The notes under the pieces were generated by a model. It was given only the letters and a program-made list of their open reading frames with translations, had not been told where the DNA came from and did no database searches. The translations under genes were made by a program, and so were the position numbers. Source: a bacterium (GTDB lineage Bacteria; Oederibacteriota; Muellerivitia; Muellerivitales; Muellerivitaceae). Taken from it: 34,525 nucleotides of DNA. The first letter of the stretch is position 1. Every line of letters starts with the position of its first letter. Below, one piece after another: positions 26,474 to 34,525 of this stretch. The DNA lies in contig DASZRK010000042.1 of NCBI GenBank assembly GCA_035549195.1, positions 1-34,525 of the forward strand. The letters are read 5' to 3'.

Positions 26474-26496
26474 GCCGCCGGTGGGGAAGGGCCGTG

Positions 26497-29400
26497 ATGA
26501 GAACCAAACCCATCTCCCGACCCCGCCTAGCCTTCCTAGCGGTCCTCCTTCTTCTTTTTACCGCCAAACCCCTTTTCCCCTTCGGCTTCGGGCACAATAA
26601 GGTCCGTTACCACACCGGCCACCACTGGAAAGTGATCGAAACACCCCATTTCCTGGTGCACTATTACGAGCCCTGCGAAGAACTGGGAAAGACCGCGGCC
26701 CGCGACGCCGAAAAGGCCTTCCAGGGCACCTGCCAAGCCTTCGATTTCGTGCCAAAGAACAGGATCCCCCTCTATATCTACGCGACCCCGCTCGAGTTCG
26801 AGGAAACGAACATCACCCCCCAGGTCTTGGAGGAGGGGGTCGGCGGTTTCACGGAGGTCTTCAAGAACCGCATCGCGGTACCCATGGACGGGTCCTACCA
26901 TGAATTCGAGAAGGTCCTGCACCACGAGCTCACCCACGCCTTCCAATACGACCTGATCTACGGGGAGGGCTGGCGTTCGGTGAACCTCTTCAAGGCCGTC
27001 TTTGTCCCCACTTGGATGATGGAGGGCATGGCCGAGTGGAATGCCCAGCACCTGGACGCCCAGGGCGAGATGGTCCTGCGGGACGCCATCCTGAACGATA
27101 AGATCATCCCCTTGAACCTGATGGATTCCTTCGAACATTTTCCCCAGGTCTATACCGCCTATAAAGAATCCCAAAGCATCCTGGACTACATCGACCAGAT
27201 CTATGGCTACGATAAGGTCGGTCAACTGTTCAAGCGGATGGCCGCGAACCAGCCGCCCGACGCCGCCTGTAAAGCCCTCCTGGGGATCGGGCTGATGGAC
27301 CTCTACGATCAATGGCGCTTTTACCTTCGCTCCAAGATCTGGTCCCGGATCGAGGGAATGGCGGCACCCGAGCGTTATGGGGAAAAATGGGGGGACGGGA
27401 TCTCCCGGGCCGCCGTTTCGCCCGACGGGAGATCCTTGGCCTTCCTGCGGCAGGATGACTTGGTGCTCTGGACCCTTCCCGACAAGAAAGAAGAGACGCT
27501 TCATCACGCACACTTCGATCCCAAGGGGAACGGGCTCGCTTGGTCCCCGGACGGGAAAAACCTGGCCTTTTGCGCGACGGAGAATGGGGAATATCGCCTG
27601 GAAACCCTGGAGATCGCATCCCACAAGCTCACGGTCCATAGGATCGATGGATTCCCGGTCCTTTTTTCCCCGGTCTGGACCCCGGACGGCGGTTCCATCG
27701 TGCTGGCGGGCTTCGATTACCAGACCGTGGACCTATTGCGGTACGACCTGTCCAGCCGGAAGGCGACCCGTTGGACCGACGATCAAGCCACCGAGAATTC
27801 CCCGTGTCTTTCCCCGGATGGGAAGACCCTTTTTTACATCCAGGAGGATGAAGGGCGGTGCCGGATCCTCTCGTCCCCGGTCGACCCCCAAATGGGTCCG
27901 GGGGCGGCCCAGGTCGTCGCCGAGGGCATCGGCCAGGTCACGGGGCTTCATTGGGCCCAAGGAGCCCTCTACCTGACCAGCAACCTGAACAAGGCCATCT
28001 TCAACCTATTCCGGCTGGAACCGGCGACCGGAACCCTGACCCAACTCACCGATAGTTTCGTGGATATCCTGAACGCGGTCCCGGCTCCCGACGCAGGGAA
28101 CTTCTACGCCGTTCTCTATCAAAAGGGGGCCCTGGGTCTTTACGCCTTCGACGCCAAAGCCCTCGAGAACACCCCGGCACCACCCGGGTCCAGCGGATAT
28201 CTTTGCAATGATTTCCGTGATTCACTGAAGGTCTTCCCCAAACCGGCCGTGATCGTCGAAAAGGGATCCGACACCTTGAACCAGGACCGGGACCAACCCG
28301 AGATCGAACCGACCCGGACGGTCCCGACCCAACCACCCCTCCCCCCGACCCACTTGGATGTGACCGAAGCCACCAACATCGTGCAGGTCCAATGGGCCCC
28401 AGGCGCCGGGGAAGGGGAGAACATCGATTCGTTCCGCATCTACCGGTCGTCGGTCGAAAAGGGACCCTTCAGCCCCGTCACCACCCTGACCCACGTCCAC
28501 CAAAGACACTTCGTCGATTATGACGTCGAGAACGGACAAACCTATTTTTACTACGTAACGGCCTTGAACGGCGTCGGGGAGAGCGGCCCCTCTCCGGTGG
28601 TGGAGGCGCACCCCAGCTTCGCCGAGACCACACAGGAGGACGGCTTCGCTTTCACGCCCGACATCCTGCTTTTCCTGGCGGGCTACGACAGTTCCTTCGG
28701 CTTCGTGGGCGGGGGAGTGGTCCAGATGAGCGACAATCTGGGCGACCACCGGTTGGGACTGCTGGGGGACACCATTCCAGGGGTCCGTACCGGACTTGAG
28801 GCCAATTATGAATTCGCCCAGTGGAGGACGACCGTCGATCTGGACCTTTATTACTATCAGAACTATTTCAACATCTATGACCTGCAGACAGGGAGCATCG
28901 TGAACCAATACCGGAACAACGAGAACGGCTTCGCCCTGAATTTCACCTATCCGCTGACCCAGGACACCCGTTTCGAGTACGGCTTCGGCACCCAGCGGTT
29001 CTTGGGCAGTCCGGTCTACCTGCAGTTCTCCGAAGGCATCTCCAATTATGCCCCTGCCGACGCCGACAAGTGGGATGTGGCGAACTACTATCGCCTTTCC
29101 TTCGTCCAGGACAAGCGGACCGCCTCGAATTTCTGGCCCAGTGGAGGTTACGCCCTCGACCTGACCCTGCTCCACGCGCCGCCCATCTTGGATTCCACTG
29201 TTTCCTTCGCCAACGTCATGACCGAGGCCCAATGGTACGTGGATTTCGGGTTCCTGAACCACTTGGTGTGGGCCAACCGCCTGATCGGAATGACCTCCCA
29301 GGGAAGGGACCCTCAACAATTCTTCATCGGGAACGACGCACCCTTCCAAGCCTTCTTTACGACCATCCGGGGCTACGGCGGGCCCACCTTTTTTGGGAGC

Positions 29401-29706
29401 AATCTCGCTCTCTATAACACCGAATTGCGCTATCCATTGGCCACGGACATGGATTTCATACCCCAGCCCCTGTCCTTCCTCCTGATCAAGGACCTGGAAC
29501 TGGCGGGATTCCTCGATCTGGGCGCCGTCGCCGACCAGATCCAGCAGATCCCCGATTCACACCTGCTGGCCAGCGCCGGAACAGGCCTTCGGATCTACAC
29601 CTTTGCCTACCAAAGGGCCCTGATCCTTTTGCGGTTCGACGTGGCCTGGCGGTTGGACGAAACCGCCCCGCCTTCCTTTCATTTCAACCTGGTCCCCATG
29701 TTCTAG
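26497..29706 (+). CDS. Metalloprotease - TolB propeller - FN3 - Omp85-like barrel fusion
   Basis: A 1069-residue outer-membrane protein. A signal peptide (about residues 1-29) leads into a peptidase MA-like domain with the zinc motif HELTH (His143, Glu144, His147) and a likely third ligand Glu176 in MMEGMAEW. Residues about 300-575 are a TolB-like propeller with repeated SPDG motifs. An FN3 domain covers about 613-707. Residues about 720-1069 form a beta barrel with the Omp85-type IRGY motif at 957-960 and a terminal Phe (FHFNLVPMF). The design resembles type Vd autotransporters such as PlpD, but with a protease passenger and FN3 where POTRA would sit. The start is the ATG at 26497, six bases after GGGGAAGG. 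Substrate and orientation are unknown. Confidence 0.88.
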   Translation: MRTKPISRPRLAFLAVLLLLFTAKPLFPFGFGHNKVRYHTGHHWKVIETPHFLVHYYEPCEELGKTAARDAEKAFQGTCQAFDFVPKNRIPLYIYATPLEFEETNITPQVLEEGVGGFTEVFKNRIAVPMDGSYHEFEKVLHHELTHAFQYDLIYGEGWRSVNLFKAVFVPTWMMEGMAEWNAQHLDAQGEMVLRDAILNDKIIPLNLMDSFEHFPQVYTAYKESQSILDYIDQIYGYDKVGQLFKRMAANQPPDAACKALLGIGLMDLYDQWRFYLRSKIWSRIEGMAAPERYGEKWGDGISRAAVSPDGRSLAFLRQDDLVLWTLPDKKEETLHHAHFDPKGNGLAWSPDGKNLAFCATENGEYRLETLEIASHKLTVHRIDGFPVLFSPVWTPDGGSIVLAGFDYQTVDLLRYDLSSRKATRWTDDQATENSPCLSPDGKTLFYIQEDEGRCRILSSPVDPQMGPGAAQVVAEGIGQVTGLHWAQGALYLTSNLNKAIFNLFRLEPATGTLTQLTDSFVDILNAVPAPDAGNFYAVLYQKGALGLYAFDAKALENTPAPPGSSGYLCNDFRDSLKVFPKPAVIVEKGSDTLNQDRDQPEIEPTRTVPTQPPLPPTHLDVTEATNIVQVQWAPGAGEGENIDSFRIYRSSVEKGPFSPVTTLTHVHQRHFVDYDVENGQTYFYYVTALNGVGESGPSPVVEAHPSFAETTQEDGFAFTPDILLFLAGYDSSFGFVGGGVVQMSDNLGDHRLGLLGDTIPGVRTGLEANYEFAQWRTTVDLDLYYYQNYFNIYDLQTGSIVNQYRNNENGFALNFTYPLTQDTRFEYGFGTQRFLGSPVYLQFSEGISNYAPADADKWDVANYYRLSFVQDKRTASNFWPSGGYALDLTLLHAPPILDSTVSFANVMTEAQWYVDFGFLNHLVWANRLIGMTSQGRDPQQFFIGNDAPFQAFFTTIRGYGGPTFFGSNLALYNTELRYPLATDMDFIPQPLSFLLIKDLELAGFLDLGAVADQIQQIPDSHLLASAGTGLRIYTFAYQRALILLRFDVAWRLDETAPPSFHFNLVPMF

Positions 29707-30475: not shown

Positions 30476-31447
30476 GTGAGGCCGAAAGTCCTCATCACCA
30501 GCAAGATCCCTTCCGTTGCTTTTACCCGCCTGAAGAGCCGTTTTCAGGTCACTTGGAACAAATCCCAACTGACCGAAGACCAACTTGCCGCCCGCATTCG
30601 TCCTTACCATGCCCTTTTATCCACATTGGCTGACCCCATCACCGCCCGTGTACTTCAACAAGCGCCCCAACTTCGGTGCGTCGCCAATTACGCGGTCGGC
30701 TTCAATAACATCGACCTGGATGAAGCTAAAAAGCGTGGAATATGGGTGACCAACACCCCCGATGTCTTGACCGAAGCGACCGCCGATATCGCTTGGGCCC
30801 TGATCCTGGCCTGTGCCCGGCGTCTTCCCGAAGGGGAAGAAATGATCCACCGCGGCCGCTTCAAGGGCTGGCATCCCTTGATGCTGCGGGGATTGGACCT
30901 GGAAGGGAAGACCTTGGGGCTCTTTGGCTTTGGCCGTATCGGCAAGGCAACCGCCCGTCGGGCCAAGGGTTGGAATATGCGGATCCTTTACCACCAACGG
31001 AACAAGGAAAAGGGAAGCGTCGAAAAAGCCTACGGGGCCAGGTTCGTTACATTCCAAACACTCCTCAAAGAGTCCGACATCCTCAGCCTTCATGCACCCT
31101 TGACCCCCGAGACCTTCCACCGGTTCACTTCAAGTGAATTCCGGAAAATGAGACCCAATTCCATATTCATCAATACATCGCGTGGCGCTCTCCACAGCGA
31201 AAAGGACCTGATCCTCGCCCTGAAAAAAGGACCCCTTTTCGCAGCCGGGTTGGACGTCTACGAGAAGGAACCTAAGATCGAGAGGGGACTGCTGGACCGG
31301 CCCAACGCCGTCCTTTTGCCCCATCTAGGAAGTGCCACCTTGAAGACGCGTGACCGGATGGCCGAGCTTTGTGCCGAAAATATCCGCAGGGTCCTCTTGG
31401 GTCACCGCCCTTTGACCCCCATTTTCAATATAAAATCAGGCAAATAG
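30476..31447 (+). CDS. D-isomer-specific 2-hydroxyacid dehydrogenase (glyoxylate/hydroxypyruvate reductase-like)
   Basis: A 323-residue NAD(P)-dependent dehydrogenase. The substrate domain has NYAVGFNNIDLDEAKKRGI and the NTPDVLTEATADIAWALIL signature. The Rossmann motif is GLFGFGRIGKATARRAKGWNM, and the catalytic triad is Arg236 (NTSRGAL), Glu265 (DVYEKEP) and His283 (LPHLGSAT). NTPDVLTEATAD with these motifs fits glyoxylate or hydroxypyruvate reductases; the exact substrate is not settled. The start is GTG with GAGGG seven bases upstream, overlapping the stop region of the previous gene. Base use from here on is less GC-rich than in the first 29 kb. Confidence 0.92.
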   Translation: MRPKVLITSKIPSVAFTRLKSRFQVTWNKSQLTEDQLAARIRPYHALLSTLADPITARVLQQAPQLRCVANYAVGFNNIDLDEAKKRGIWVTNTPDVLTEATADIAWALILACARRLPEGEEMIHRGRFKGWHPLMLRGLDLEGKTLGLFGFGRIGKATARRAKGWNMRILYHQRNKEKGSVEKAYGARFVTFQTLLKESDILSLHAPLTPETFHRFTSSEFRKMRPNSIFINTSRGALHSEKDLILALKKGPLFAAGLDVYEKEPKIERGLLDRPNAVLLPHLGSATLKTRDRMAELCAENIRRVLLGHRPLTPIFNIKSGK

Positions 31448-31501: not shown

Positions 31502-32281
31502 ATGGAGCTTCGTTCAAAGGTCATCGGGACCGGCCGTCCTTTTGTTTTTCTCCACGCCTTCCCTTTATCGCACGAATTATTCGATGATTGGTCCGGGATC
31601 GAAGGATTTGAGCTGATATTGCCGGATTTTCCAGGATTCGGACTGACACCGTTGTACCCAGAAGAACCAACCCTGGATCGAGTAGCCGAGGCCCTCGCGG
31701 AACACCTGAAACACATGGGGATCCATGAAAAGATCGTTCTGGGAGGGATCTCCATGGGCGGTTACTGGGCTTTTGAATTCCTGCGACTCTATCCGGAAAT
31801 GGTCGGAAAATTGCTCCTGGCCTCGACGCGCCCGGGTCCGGACAAACCCGAAGGACGTGCGGGCCGTTTGACGATGGCGGATCGGGTCCTGCAGCAAGGT
31901 ACGGAGTTCATGGTGGACGCTATGACACCGGCCCTTTTGGGTAAAACGACCTTGGCCCAAGGGGACCGAATTACCGGGCGTTTGGCCCAATGGATCCGAG
32001 TGACCCGTCCTGAAGCGGTGGCCGGCGCCCAAAGGGCCATGGCCCAACGCCGTGATCAAACCGAATTCCTTACAAGCCTACAGGTCCCGACCTTGATCCT
32101 AGCGGGCGCCGAAGACACCTTGATCCCGCCCGCAGAGGCCCATCGCATGAAAGAACTCATCCCAAACTCCCAGTTGGTGACCATTGAGAAGGCGGGGCAT
32201 TTGCTGCCCCTGGAAGCTCCCAGAATTTTCCAAAGTTCCATCGAAAGTTTCGTTCGATCTTCGGCCGAAAAAGGCAGTTGA
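31502..32281 (+). CDS. Alpha/beta hydrolase
   Basis: A 259-residue cytoplasmic hydrolase of the alpha/beta fold. The oxyanion region VFLHAFPLSHELFDDW, nucleophile elbow GISMGG with Ser84, Asp205 in GAEDTLIPP and His233 in KAGHLLPLE complete the triad. PDFPGFGLT is the usual second motif. Relatives include esterases, MenH-like and BioH-like enzymes; nothing here separates these. AAGGA lies five bases before the ATG. The 54 bases after the dehydrogenase are AT-rich, and cotranscription is possible. Confidence 0.92.
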   Translation: MELRSKVIGTGRPFVFLHAFPLSHELFDDWSGIEGFELILPDFPGFGLTPLYPEEPTLDRVAEALAEHLKHMGIHEKIVLGGISMGGYWAFEFLRLYPEMVGKLLLASTRPGPDKPEGRAGRLTMADRVLQQGTEFMVDAMTPALLGKTTLAQGDRITGRLAQWIRVTRPEAVAGAQRAMAQRRDQTEFLTSLQVPTLILAGAEDTLIPPAEAHRMKELIPNSQLVTIEKAGHLLPLEAPRIFQSSIESFVRSSAEKGS

Positions 32282-32332
32282 TAACCTGGTATTCCAGCTC
32301 ATCTCTCCCGATCATCACCTGAAAAAACGGCC

Positions 32333-32344
32333 TTTAAATGCAAA
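32333..32344 (+). repeat. Left copy of a 12-base inverted repeat flanking the recombinase gene
   Basis: TTTAAATGCAAA here is the exact reverse complement of 33673-33684, on the other side of the recombinase gene. Both copies are in AT-rich non-coding DNA. Confidence 0.45.
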
Positions 32345-32379
32345 TTCGGCCAAAAACGACGGAGCTCCTGGAGCCTCCG

Positions 32380-32474: not shown

Positions 32475-33509
32475 ATGAACGACTCCACGAGCCCACATTC
32501 CAGGTCGAACCAGGCCGACCTGCTCTCCTTGCCGCCCTACGATGGCTTCTTGAGCCTTTGTAAGTCGAAGCATACCCGGGACAATTACCAGCAGGATCTA
32601 AAGGTCTTAAAGGCTTTCCTCGAAGGCGCGGGATTATCCGGTCCACCGGAAGCCACCCCGGAACAAATGGTCCGTTTCGCCGCCTCTTTGACCAAGCCTG
32701 GAATAACACCCATGGGCAAACCACGGGGACCCTATTCGACCAGGACCATGAAGCGGATATTGGCCTCCACCCGGTCCTTTTACCGCTATTTGGCCTCCAT
32801 CCAGAGGATCAGCACCGACCCTACGGCCGTTTTCCACAATCTGGCCATCCGGAGTCCACAGCGAAACCCGAGGCCCTTGGCTCCCCAGGATCGGGATCTC
32901 TTGGTCAAGAACCTGAGAACCGGCGCTCTCGAGGACCAAAGGACCAGCTTGACCGTCCTTTTCGGCTACCATTGCGGTCTCAGGGTTTCCGAGATCGCCA
33001 ACCTCAAGACCGAGGACCTGGACCTGACCCGCGGGTTGGTCACCGTCATCGGTAAGGGTGACAAGGAACGAATCGTTCCGATGACCGATGCCCTGATCCA
33101 TCTGATCAAACTTTATTTACGCCAGGAAAGGCCTCCCAGTGCCTATCTTTTTACGAGTCCGCGCCACACGAACAAGGCCATCCATCCTGATTATCTTGAA
33201 GGTTGGGTCAAAAAAGCCGCCCTCTGGGCCGGTTTACCACAAGCCCAGGACCTGACCGTGCATGTCCTCCGACACTCATTTGGGACCCAATTGGCCGAAT
33301 CAGGGGCTAGCGTCTATGAGATCCGGGATTTGATGGGCCATTCCAGTATCACGGTCAGCGAAAATTACGTCAAACTGGCTTCCCAAAGCGCTCAAGCCGC
33401 CCATCGAAAGGCTTTTGGGCAAAAGCTTGCGACACATCCGATGCGGATCGAAGGCCTCTTCGGCATTCGATCCGTTCTGGAGAAATTCCGTGGGCTTCCC
33501 AAGAGCTGA
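32475..33509 (+). CDS. Xer-type tyrosine recombinase
   Basis: A 344-residue site-specific recombinase. The N-terminal SAM-like core-binding domain (about residues 20-125) has KHTRDNYQQDLK and STRTMKRILASTRSFYRYL. The catalytic domain has all expected residues: Arg170 (CGLRVSE), Lys194 (GKGDKER), His263 and Arg266 (HVLRHSFGT), His289 (MGHSSI) and nucleophile Tyr298 (ENYVKLA). It is some 40 residues longer than typical XerC/XerD, with a longer C-terminal tail. It could be the chromosome-dimer recombinase or a mobile-element integrase. It stands alone, with its own promoter, before about 515 bases of AT-rich non-coding DNA that may hold its target site. No other phage or transposon genes are seen. 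Confidence 0.94.
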   Translation: MNDSTSPHSRSNQADLLSLPPYDGFLSLCKSKHTRDNYQQDLKVLKAFLEGAGLSGPPEATPEQMVRFAASLTKPGITPMGKPRGPYSTRTMKRILASTRSFYRYLASIQRISTDPTAVFHNLAIRSPQRNPRPLAPQDRDLLVKNLRTGALEDQRTSLTVLFGYHCGLRVSEIANLKTEDLDLTRGLVTVIGKGDKERIVPMTDALIHLIKLYLRQERPPSAYLFTSPRHTNKAIHPDYLEGWVKKAALWAGLPQAQDLTVHVLRHSFGTQLAESGASVYEIRDLMGHSSITVSENYVKLASQSAQAAHRKAFGQKLATHPMRIEGLFGIRSVLEKFRGLPKS

Positions 33510-33562: not shown

Positions 33563-33672
33563 TCGAGATGGCGTTATAACTCTTTATTCTTGAGGCGTTT
33601 ATTGCCAAGGCGAGGGTTCTTTCAGGGCCTCGAAGTGGTATGGCTTTTTTGAGGATGCTTGAATGGTCCAAT

Positions 33673-33687
33673 TTTGCATTTAAATGC
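33673..33687 (-). repeat. Right copy of the flanking inverted repeat, overlapping a palindrome
   Basis: TTTGCATTTAAA (33673-33684) is the reverse complement of 32333-32344. It overlaps the perfect 12-base palindrome GCATTTAAATGC (33676-33687). Confidence 0.45.
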
Positions 33688-33692
33688 CTTTT

Positions 33693-33715
33693 ATTTAAGA
33701 GATTATGTGCGCACA
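33693..33715. other. dif-like motif order near the recombinase
   Basis: ATTTAA, ATTATG and CGCAC occur in this order within 22 bases, the same three blocks and order as in the reverse complement of the E. coli dif site, but that site spans 28 bases. The right part overlaps the palindrome TGTGCGCACA. It is a possible target of the neighbouring recombinase; the spacing argues against a classical XerC/XerD site. Confidence 0.25.
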
Positions 33716-34024
33716 GCAATCTTTGTACTTGGCTTACCTATGCCTAAAAGCGACCCGTTTTAATCCGAAAAGGACCCATCCGAACCCGAGGAAAAAACGA
33801 CTTCCGAGGATCTTAAAAACAAGGCTTTTTTAAACGACCCATTTTTTCTTCGATTTCCACCGCTCAAATTCAAGATGCCTCACTTTCTGAAGAAAAGAAC
33901 GGAATCCACGGTTGAATGACACTAATTTACATGTTCATTCTCATCAAATTCAGCGTGTTAAAGCATCGGTTTAATCAAAAGGGCTTAAAATCGAACGGTT
34001 TCCAGCTAGTTAAAGTTTTACTTG

Positions 34025-34525
34025 ATGGGGGTGAAATTGACCTTTTCTCATCGAACACCGGAAGATTTAACTCCCAATGACTGGGCCCTCAGCCGACCTG
34101 AGGGCGTCCCGATCCTGGATTTGACCCTTTCCAACCCCACGGAATGCGGCCTCAATTATCCTCAAGATCTTTTGGATCCCTTGGTCAAGGCCACTTCCCT
34201 GCGTTATGACCCTCAACCCTTTGGGTCCAAAACGGCCAGAGAGGCCTTGGCTCGCTTTCTTTCACGCAAGGAAAGCCCCGTGGACCCCGAAAACCTTGTG
34301 CTGACCGCCAGCACCAGCGAGGCCTATTCCTTTCTTTTTAAGCTTCTTGCCGATCCGGGAGATCATTTTTTCTATCGGGTCCCGGGATATCCCCTTTTGG
34401 AGCATTTAGCCCGCCTGGAAGGGCTCCAACTGAACCCTTGCCCTTCCCTACCCGAACCAGGATGGCCTTTGGACCCGCATCCGCTCTCCAGGAAACCCCA
34501 AGCCAATTGCCGGGGATTCATTCTG
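34025..34525 (+). CDS. PLP-dependent aminotransferase, class I/II (3' end missing)
   Basis: The first 167 residues of a fold-type I aminotransferase, cut by the window end. Visible family parts are LDLTLSNPTECGLNYP (substrate-binding N-terminal arm with NPTE), LRYDPQPFGSKTAREALARFL, VDPENLVLTASTSEAYSFLFKLLADPGDHFFYRVPGYPLLEHLARLEG, where STSEAYSFLFK is the cofactor phosphate-binding helix start. The catalytic lysine lies beyond the window. The start is probably the ATG at 34025; GTG at 34031 or TTG at 34022 are possible. No Shine-Dalgarno sequence stands before the ATG. Substrate cannot be told from this part. Confidence 0.9.
   Translation, partial: MGVKLTFSHRTPEDLTPNDWALSRPEGVPILDLTLSNPTECGLNYPQDLLDPLVKATSLRYDPQPFGSKTAREALARFLSRKESPVDPENLVLTASTSEAYSFLFKLLADPGDHFFYRVPGYPLLEHLARLEGLQLNPCPSLPEPGWPLDPHPLSRKPQANCRGFIL

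Follow-up and report, generated by a model that had tools for sequence, protein, structure and literature searches.

Does the Xer-type recombinase gene near the end of this contig act on a dif site of its own, and is this how chromosome dimers are resolved in its lineage? The stretch of DNA analysed here, the window, has 34,525 nucleotides and is an entire contig (C42) of a draft genome of 3.2 Mb that is 97.9% complete (G000); four close named relatives (L035-L038) are genomes of candidate division FCPU426. A preliminary description had placed dif-like sequence blocks at 33693-33715, after a "lone" Xer gene. We consider it rather probable that one FCPU426 order resolves its chromosome dimers with a single Xer, encoded at the terminus, and an adjacent non-classical A+T-rich dif-like site, which we call D. 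Sequence comparison indicates the conservation of D, its near-uniqueness, its place, its pairing with an inverted site (U), the lack of a detected classical dif and the presence of the FtsK gamma domain. Family counts below are over 8 genomes (G000-G007, G000 being that of the window), and order counts are over 9, adding G008, the single genome of a sister family that was compared.

The sites on either side of xer

The relevant features of the window are these:

31502..32281, + strand: alpha/beta hydrolase gene (Pfam Abhydrolase_1), before U
32311..32348, - strand: U, an inverted and diverged copy of the core (D-derived pattern; model search)
32475..33509, + strand: xer, whose product is a Xer-type tyrosine recombinase of 344 aa, extended at its C-terminus by about 30 residues
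33660..33752, + strand: D plus the conserved letters around it, AATG on the left, TTTGTACTT and AAAA on the right (8-copy alignment)
33669..33706, + strand: D, the 38-bp core, proposed dif (8/8 family genomes; model search; dyad test)
about 33686-33692, + strand: variable centre of D, within the core
34022..34525, + strand: aminotransferase gene (Pfam), after D, cut by the contig end and continuing on contig C46

The alignment of the eight family genomes reveals one strongly conserved element between xer and the aminotransferase gene, the D core GATTTTGCATTTAAAnGnnGTTTnTTTnAAnGATT, which lies 109-164 bp past the xer stop in the seven genomes measured. In the window it lies between called genes and is A+T-rich (21% G+C vs 60% for the window), in keeping with dif sites, which are intergenic, low in G+C and some 28-31 bp long. 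In 11-kb stretches of G001, G002, G004 and G005, no other 34-mer that lies outside called genes and tRNAs is as well conserved as D, a ranking from which U is absent because it fell in a spurious gene call in those stretches. The preliminary description was right that a non-classical site sits beside a single Xer-type gene, D being kept after xer in 8/8 family genomes. The letters it had listed are all present (ATTTAA at 33693-33698, ATTATG at 33702-33707, CGCAC at 33710-33714 and the palindrome TGTGCGCACA at 33706-33715), and they begin about 185 bases past the xer stop at 33509, close to the 190 that had been given. However, only the left part of that interval, up to 33706, belongs to D: the conserved element starts 24 bases to the left of ATTTAA, so that the real feature is 33669-33706 and ATTTAA lies in its right half. 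Among the eight genomes, ATTTAA is kept as part of D, whereas ATTATG, CGCAC and the palindrome are not conserved at most of their alignment positions. The idea that the spacing departs from that of the 28-base classical site falls with them, since the shared blocks are not the conserved part and the interval catches only the right end.

The proposed likeness of this motif to E. coli dif is best put down to chance, as the best ungapped alignment matches 17 of 28 positions, with 11 mismatches, and ties with the unrelated position 31122. The composite pattern of blocks is unique in the window, where 0.01 occurrences are expected, an expectation that means little because the pattern was written from that very sequence.

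The two arms of D have the consensus TGCATTTAAA and TTTGAAAGAT. Their dyad symmetry gave p values of 0.016 with 9-bp arms, 0.036 with 7 and 0.07 with 11 (0.012-0.07 overall, depending on arm length), and an earlier test on the same sites had given 0.5. In the same test, classical dif reached 0.032 with 9-bp arms and 0.39 with 7, and no significant symmetry was seen for U (0.23 with 9-bp arms); the test was run over several arm lengths and spacers, and its control consisted of 12 dif sequences chosen by eye from 52 pattern matches. The symmetry weakly supports binding of the arms of D by two monomers. We also considered an RNA element at D and rejected it, since there was neither an Rfam match in the window nor a conserved fold across the eight copies (-3.08 kcal/mol, double changes at only 1 of 14 pairs). 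One scan of viral contigs gave no exact match to the D core pattern. Two further conserved stretches lie in the same region. One, at about 33574-33594 (approximately TTAAGTCTTTGTTTTTCA), follows xer in the family and in G008, and was matched with at most 3 mismatches in three of the five contigs scanned (G008:C22:204550, G004:C3:120401 and G001:C90:33097). The other, similar to CTTAAAGTTTTACTTGAGG, is found at about 34009-34027, directly before the aminotransferase start, and is kept in family genomes.

The inverted partner before xer was missing from the preliminary description. A pattern built from D alone and run with up to 3 mismatches over the nine whole genomes recovered D in all eight family genomes and an inverted match before xer in six of them (G000, G002, G003, G004, G006, G007). 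Elsewhere, it matched once with 1 mismatch, in G005, and three times with 3 mismatches (G001, G006, G008), the latter looking like chance; its reversed control matched once in the nine genomes. U is weak in two genomes: the closest inverted sequence before xer departs from the pattern at 6 positions in G001 and at 5 in G005. We then built a model from the 16 sites, U and D together, and searched 15 genomes with it, 150 first-look candidates being scored in each genome but one. Those 16 sites score 29-43 bits, as they must by construction. The sole extra site is in G005 (30.1 bits), and the next best anywhere reaches 21.9 bits; elsewhere in the phylum, the maximum is 20.0 bits over seven genomes, one of them G008. 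That no site is recognised in G008, although its xer is at a gene-direction switch, speaks against our proposal. Family genomes therefore have two sites each (three in G005), of which two flank xer and face outward. The third copy of G005 (G005:C92:7154-7189, or L106:1498-1533) is near leuS, and there is no switch of gene direction in the 3 kb around it.

Over the 38-bp core, D copies share 78% identity and U copies 73%, with 72% between the two sets. In 8/8 genomes U and D are mismatched at 1-4 of their 7 central positions, the conserved flanking letters of D are missing from U on both sides, and U is placed 104-468 bp before xer, at no fixed distance. We take D as the likely dif on the basis of these comparisons, since it is the better conserved of the two and has conserved flanks, and since arm letters of U are changed in G001 and G005. 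To our knowledge, known dif/Xer systems have one dif per chromosome. This feature does not hold here, with two sites and three in G005, and the two inverted sites are the unusual part of the locus and count against the proposed reading.

The recombinase and its partners

The product of xer matches Pfam Phage_integrase (108.5 bits) and has a SAM-like N-terminal domain. It is well below the NCBIfam cut-offs for XerC (160.6 bits, 335 needed), XerD (154.6, 330 needed), XerA (138, 220 needed) and XerS (76, 267 needed). A protein search over 59 genomes picked by kinship, G000 among them, identified orthologues of 62-68% identity in the other seven family genomes, that of G003 being split over two contigs, and one of 53% identity in G008. 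Among the matches listed, the non-orthologous ones have about 24-40% identity and commonly come two per genome elsewhere in the phylum. The alignment of the order's Xers shows that the residues we take to be catalytic are kept, and that all nine orthologues have some 30 extra, modestly conserved residues beyond the helix that follows the presumed catalytic tyrosine. This extension is partly of low confidence in the predicted fold (mean pLDDT 82.8, pTM 0.59). The top fold matches are archaeal XerA, a phage integrase, XerD, an integron integrase and XerH, with rmsd values of 5-16 for which we take them as indicating the fold class only. By sequence, phmmer scored the window Xer at 97.7 bits with an archaeal Xer, 94.7 with E. 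coli XerD and 40.9 with XerH.

A quick tree (64 rows; 69 of 89 loci taken, of which L064 and L074 yielded no reading frame, and L001, L003 and L013, a fragment, were left out) places the Xers of the order outside the XerC-like and XerD-like groups, in a long-stemmed clade shared with the phage-type L004, a grouping that is possibly long-branch attraction. L004:1432-2367 is itself in G000; it encodes a 311-aa Xer-like recombinase with 34% identity to the window Xer, lies beside a gene that by eye resembles YqaJ, and is probably phage-borne. How alone is the Xer, then? A PF00589 search identified four tyrosine recombinases in G000, the window Xer included. The other three, two of the 370-aa integrase type and one beside the YqaJ-like gene, look phage-borne or integrative by eye. 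"Lone" is thus correct in the sense that the window Xer is the sole recombinase of its kind in G000, but not in the sense that it is the only tyrosine recombinase. Among the matches listed, G005, G007 and G008 have no further tyrosine recombinase at E <= 0.001, and G001, G002, G004 and G006 have additional ones besides the Xer orthologue, which are unsorted.

We did not find a XerC/XerD pair for this order, the window Xer being under both model cut-offs. The FtsK gamma domain is above its cut-off in 8/9 order genomes, the exception being G007, which is 84% complete. The classical dif pattern (at most 2 mismatches) is absent from all nine order genomes, in agreement with the earlier expectation of no clear dif elsewhere. 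Outside the order, 36 genomes of the phylum were searched and 28 gave a match, with many clear sites, e.g. TTCGCATAATGTATCTTATGTTAACT, though some matches look like chance and the reversed control also matched in some genomes.

Location of the replication terminus

Gene directions converge on xer in all five genomes tested (G000, G001, G002, G004, G008). The best switch point is 0.7-2.1 kb from xer in the last four of these, with log-likelihood gains of 29.6 (G001), 19.0 (G002), 52.0 (G004) and 81.8 (G008), as compared with a largest gain of 6.9-9.5 in 300 shuffles, which ignore operons. The test covered long contigs; those of G003, G005, G006 and G007 are short and were left out. The xer of the sister family thus also sits at a gene-direction switch. 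The window alone has no switch at xer (gain of 2.6 vs a shuffled maximum of 5.3). Contig C46 continues it: the rest of the aminotransferase gene is found there, and the contig ends share 9 bases. Opposite-running frames account for 14 of 18 on C46 vs 4 of 28 in the window (Fisher p 2.8e-5), and the switch of G000, with the two contigs joined, is at the same place as in the relatives.

The preliminary description had looked to a GC-skew switch at the locus. The skew of G000 does not flip there (-0.067 to the left, -0.034 to the right), although gene directions do switch. Taking gene direction in place of skew, both refuting conditions set in the preliminary description, no switch at the locus and a clear dif elsewhere, turned out in favour of its idea. 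In G004 the cumulative GC skew has its peak at 100.0 kb, 20.5 kb from xer (120.5-121.5 kb); in G008 the peak is at 187.0 kb, 17.6 kb from xer (204.6-205.6 kb). The terminus peak is absent in G000 and G001, and the skew of G002 is weakly opposite in sign. With a strand-corrected fit, G004 and G008 have their breakpoints 21-23 kb from xer, and those of G001, G002 and the window are weak and unrelated. C-rich third positions of coding strands may mask the GC skew in G000, G001 and G002. With skew peaks in only two of the five genomes, gene direction is our main evidence for the terminus. KOPS are polarised (115 toward, 42 away), a result that we set aside since it is no better than that of control G-rich octamers (50-76% toward).

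A proposed mechanism, its alternatives and related systems

XerS/difSL and XerH/difH, whose sites also adjoin the gene, suggest how D might be used: a pair of Xer monomers would occupy its arms, on either side of a centre of about 5-7 bp, variable between species. FtsK would bring the two D copies of a chromosome dimer together at the septum, and exchange between them would split the dimer. We infer that the window Xer would bind and cleave the site and resolve dimers, and that D would be the site used. U would be a second putative Xer-binding site, in the opposite direction; it could serve as another dif or as an operator, or it could be a relic. Recombination between U and D is expected to be poor, as their central bases differ in every genome. 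A more specific reading of the pair, which we hold as a doubtful suggestion, is that two outward dif-like sites with mismatched centres surround the terminus Xer, so that each would recombine only with its sister twin and, whichever replichore FtsK comes from, one of the two directions would present it with a Xer complex in the correct orientation.

The sites could instead be operators or promoter parts for xer and its neighbours, with no role in recombination. D precedes the aminotransferase gene, further conserved blocks are found there, and the extra copy of G005 is near leuS, all of which would suit such a role, but copies at other genes are almost absent, U is directed back at the 3' end of the preceding gene and its distance to xer varies between 104 and 468 bp, and neither an Rfam match nor a conserved RNA fold was identified; a regulatory role of this kind is quite improbable. 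The presence at the terminus, and hardly elsewhere, of two opposite sites of about 35 bp also recalls polar arrest sites of replication forks, bound by an unknown terminator protein, with xer merely lying between them. In B. subtilis and E. coli, according to PMC10331603, the promoter region of the terminator gene contains a ter site. Nevertheless, the Tus and RTP families were found in 0/7 genomes each, with controls that match in E. coli and B. subtilis, the gene bracketed here is a recombinase, and D, more strongly conserved than U, carries flanks that U lacks, which leads us to regard fork arrest as very improbable.

We give very little credence to the idea that U and D delimit a cassette inverted, or once moved, by Xer, along the lines of what is known in Acinetobacter. 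The central bases of the two sites differ at 1-4 of 7 positions in 8/8 genomes, xer is directed toward the aminotransferase gene in all nine, and the gene order is the same in two families, which argues for vertical descent of the locus. What speaks for such a module is that xer is bounded by two similar, oppositely directed sites, as dif and pdif modules are by C/D and D/C sites in an extract of PMC12907356. Those modules carry cargo and use the host XerCD, whereas here the bounded gene is the recombinase itself, at the terminus and in a conserved gene order.

The preferred reading, a single Xer with D as its dif, has known counterparts, since single-Xer systems are already described (XerS, XerH, XerL and archaeal XerA). 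Among the closest is that of Helicobacter and Campylobacter, with a single recombinase of similar length and a site that in most species is by the gene, near the skew peak. According to PMC2731167, difH is A+T-rich, with short inverted arms and a variable centre, lies 16-282 bp from the gene in 7 of 12 listed species and is 0.8-90 kb from the GC-skew peak, a range that includes the distances of G004 and G008. However, the window Xer is only distantly related to XerH in sequence, and there are two inverted sites here. The difH consensus has no exact match in the nine genomes; with up to 2 mismatches, it gives scattered matches in 9/9, none at the xer locus. XerS of Streptococcus and Lactococcus (about 356 aa, with an atypical 31-bp difSL immediately beside the gene, as excerpted from PMC5357621) is likewise a single recombinase with an adjoining atypical site, but the XerS model reaches only 76 of 267 bits here, the arm sequence is other and that system has one site. 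XerL is the single recombinase of Legionellales, an order that lacks the classical dif and Xer; its dif has long perfect inverted repeats as arms, and L. pneumophila carries the site more than 400 kb from xerL (PMC9765430). The shared trait is one recombinase in an order without classical dif, and the present locus is set apart, by description rather than by XerL sequence, by imperfect arms, weak symmetry and adjacency. Archaeal XerA is also a single recombinase, the nearest solved structure by sequence and among the top fold matches, yet the window Xer remains under the XerA cut-off (138 of 220 bits), and archaeal dif is said to be a highly conserved 28-bp site. XerCD/dif has in common with this locus the proposed function, the place at the terminus and the kept FtsK gamma domain, and differs in its second Xer and classical dif, neither of which was found in this order.

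In one open literature library, we found no earlier report of an FCPU426 Xer with its own site and an inverted pair. Within this limited evidence, such an FCPU426 lineage, in which a Xer and a site peculiar to it occur together with an inverted pair around the gene, appears to be new. If the proposal is true, single-recombinase resolution arose once more, within a phylum in which other families keep XerC/XerD-like pairs and classical dif, and this would allow a before-and-after comparison. The inverted pair also poses a testable question on the role of a second, opposite Xer site at the terminus, and it can serve as a terminus marker in draft genomes of the family. Finally, further upstream in the window (26494-29706), we observed a gene for a 1070-aa protein that combines a Peptidase_MA-like domain, a TolB/PD40-like propeller and an Omp85-like barrel region.
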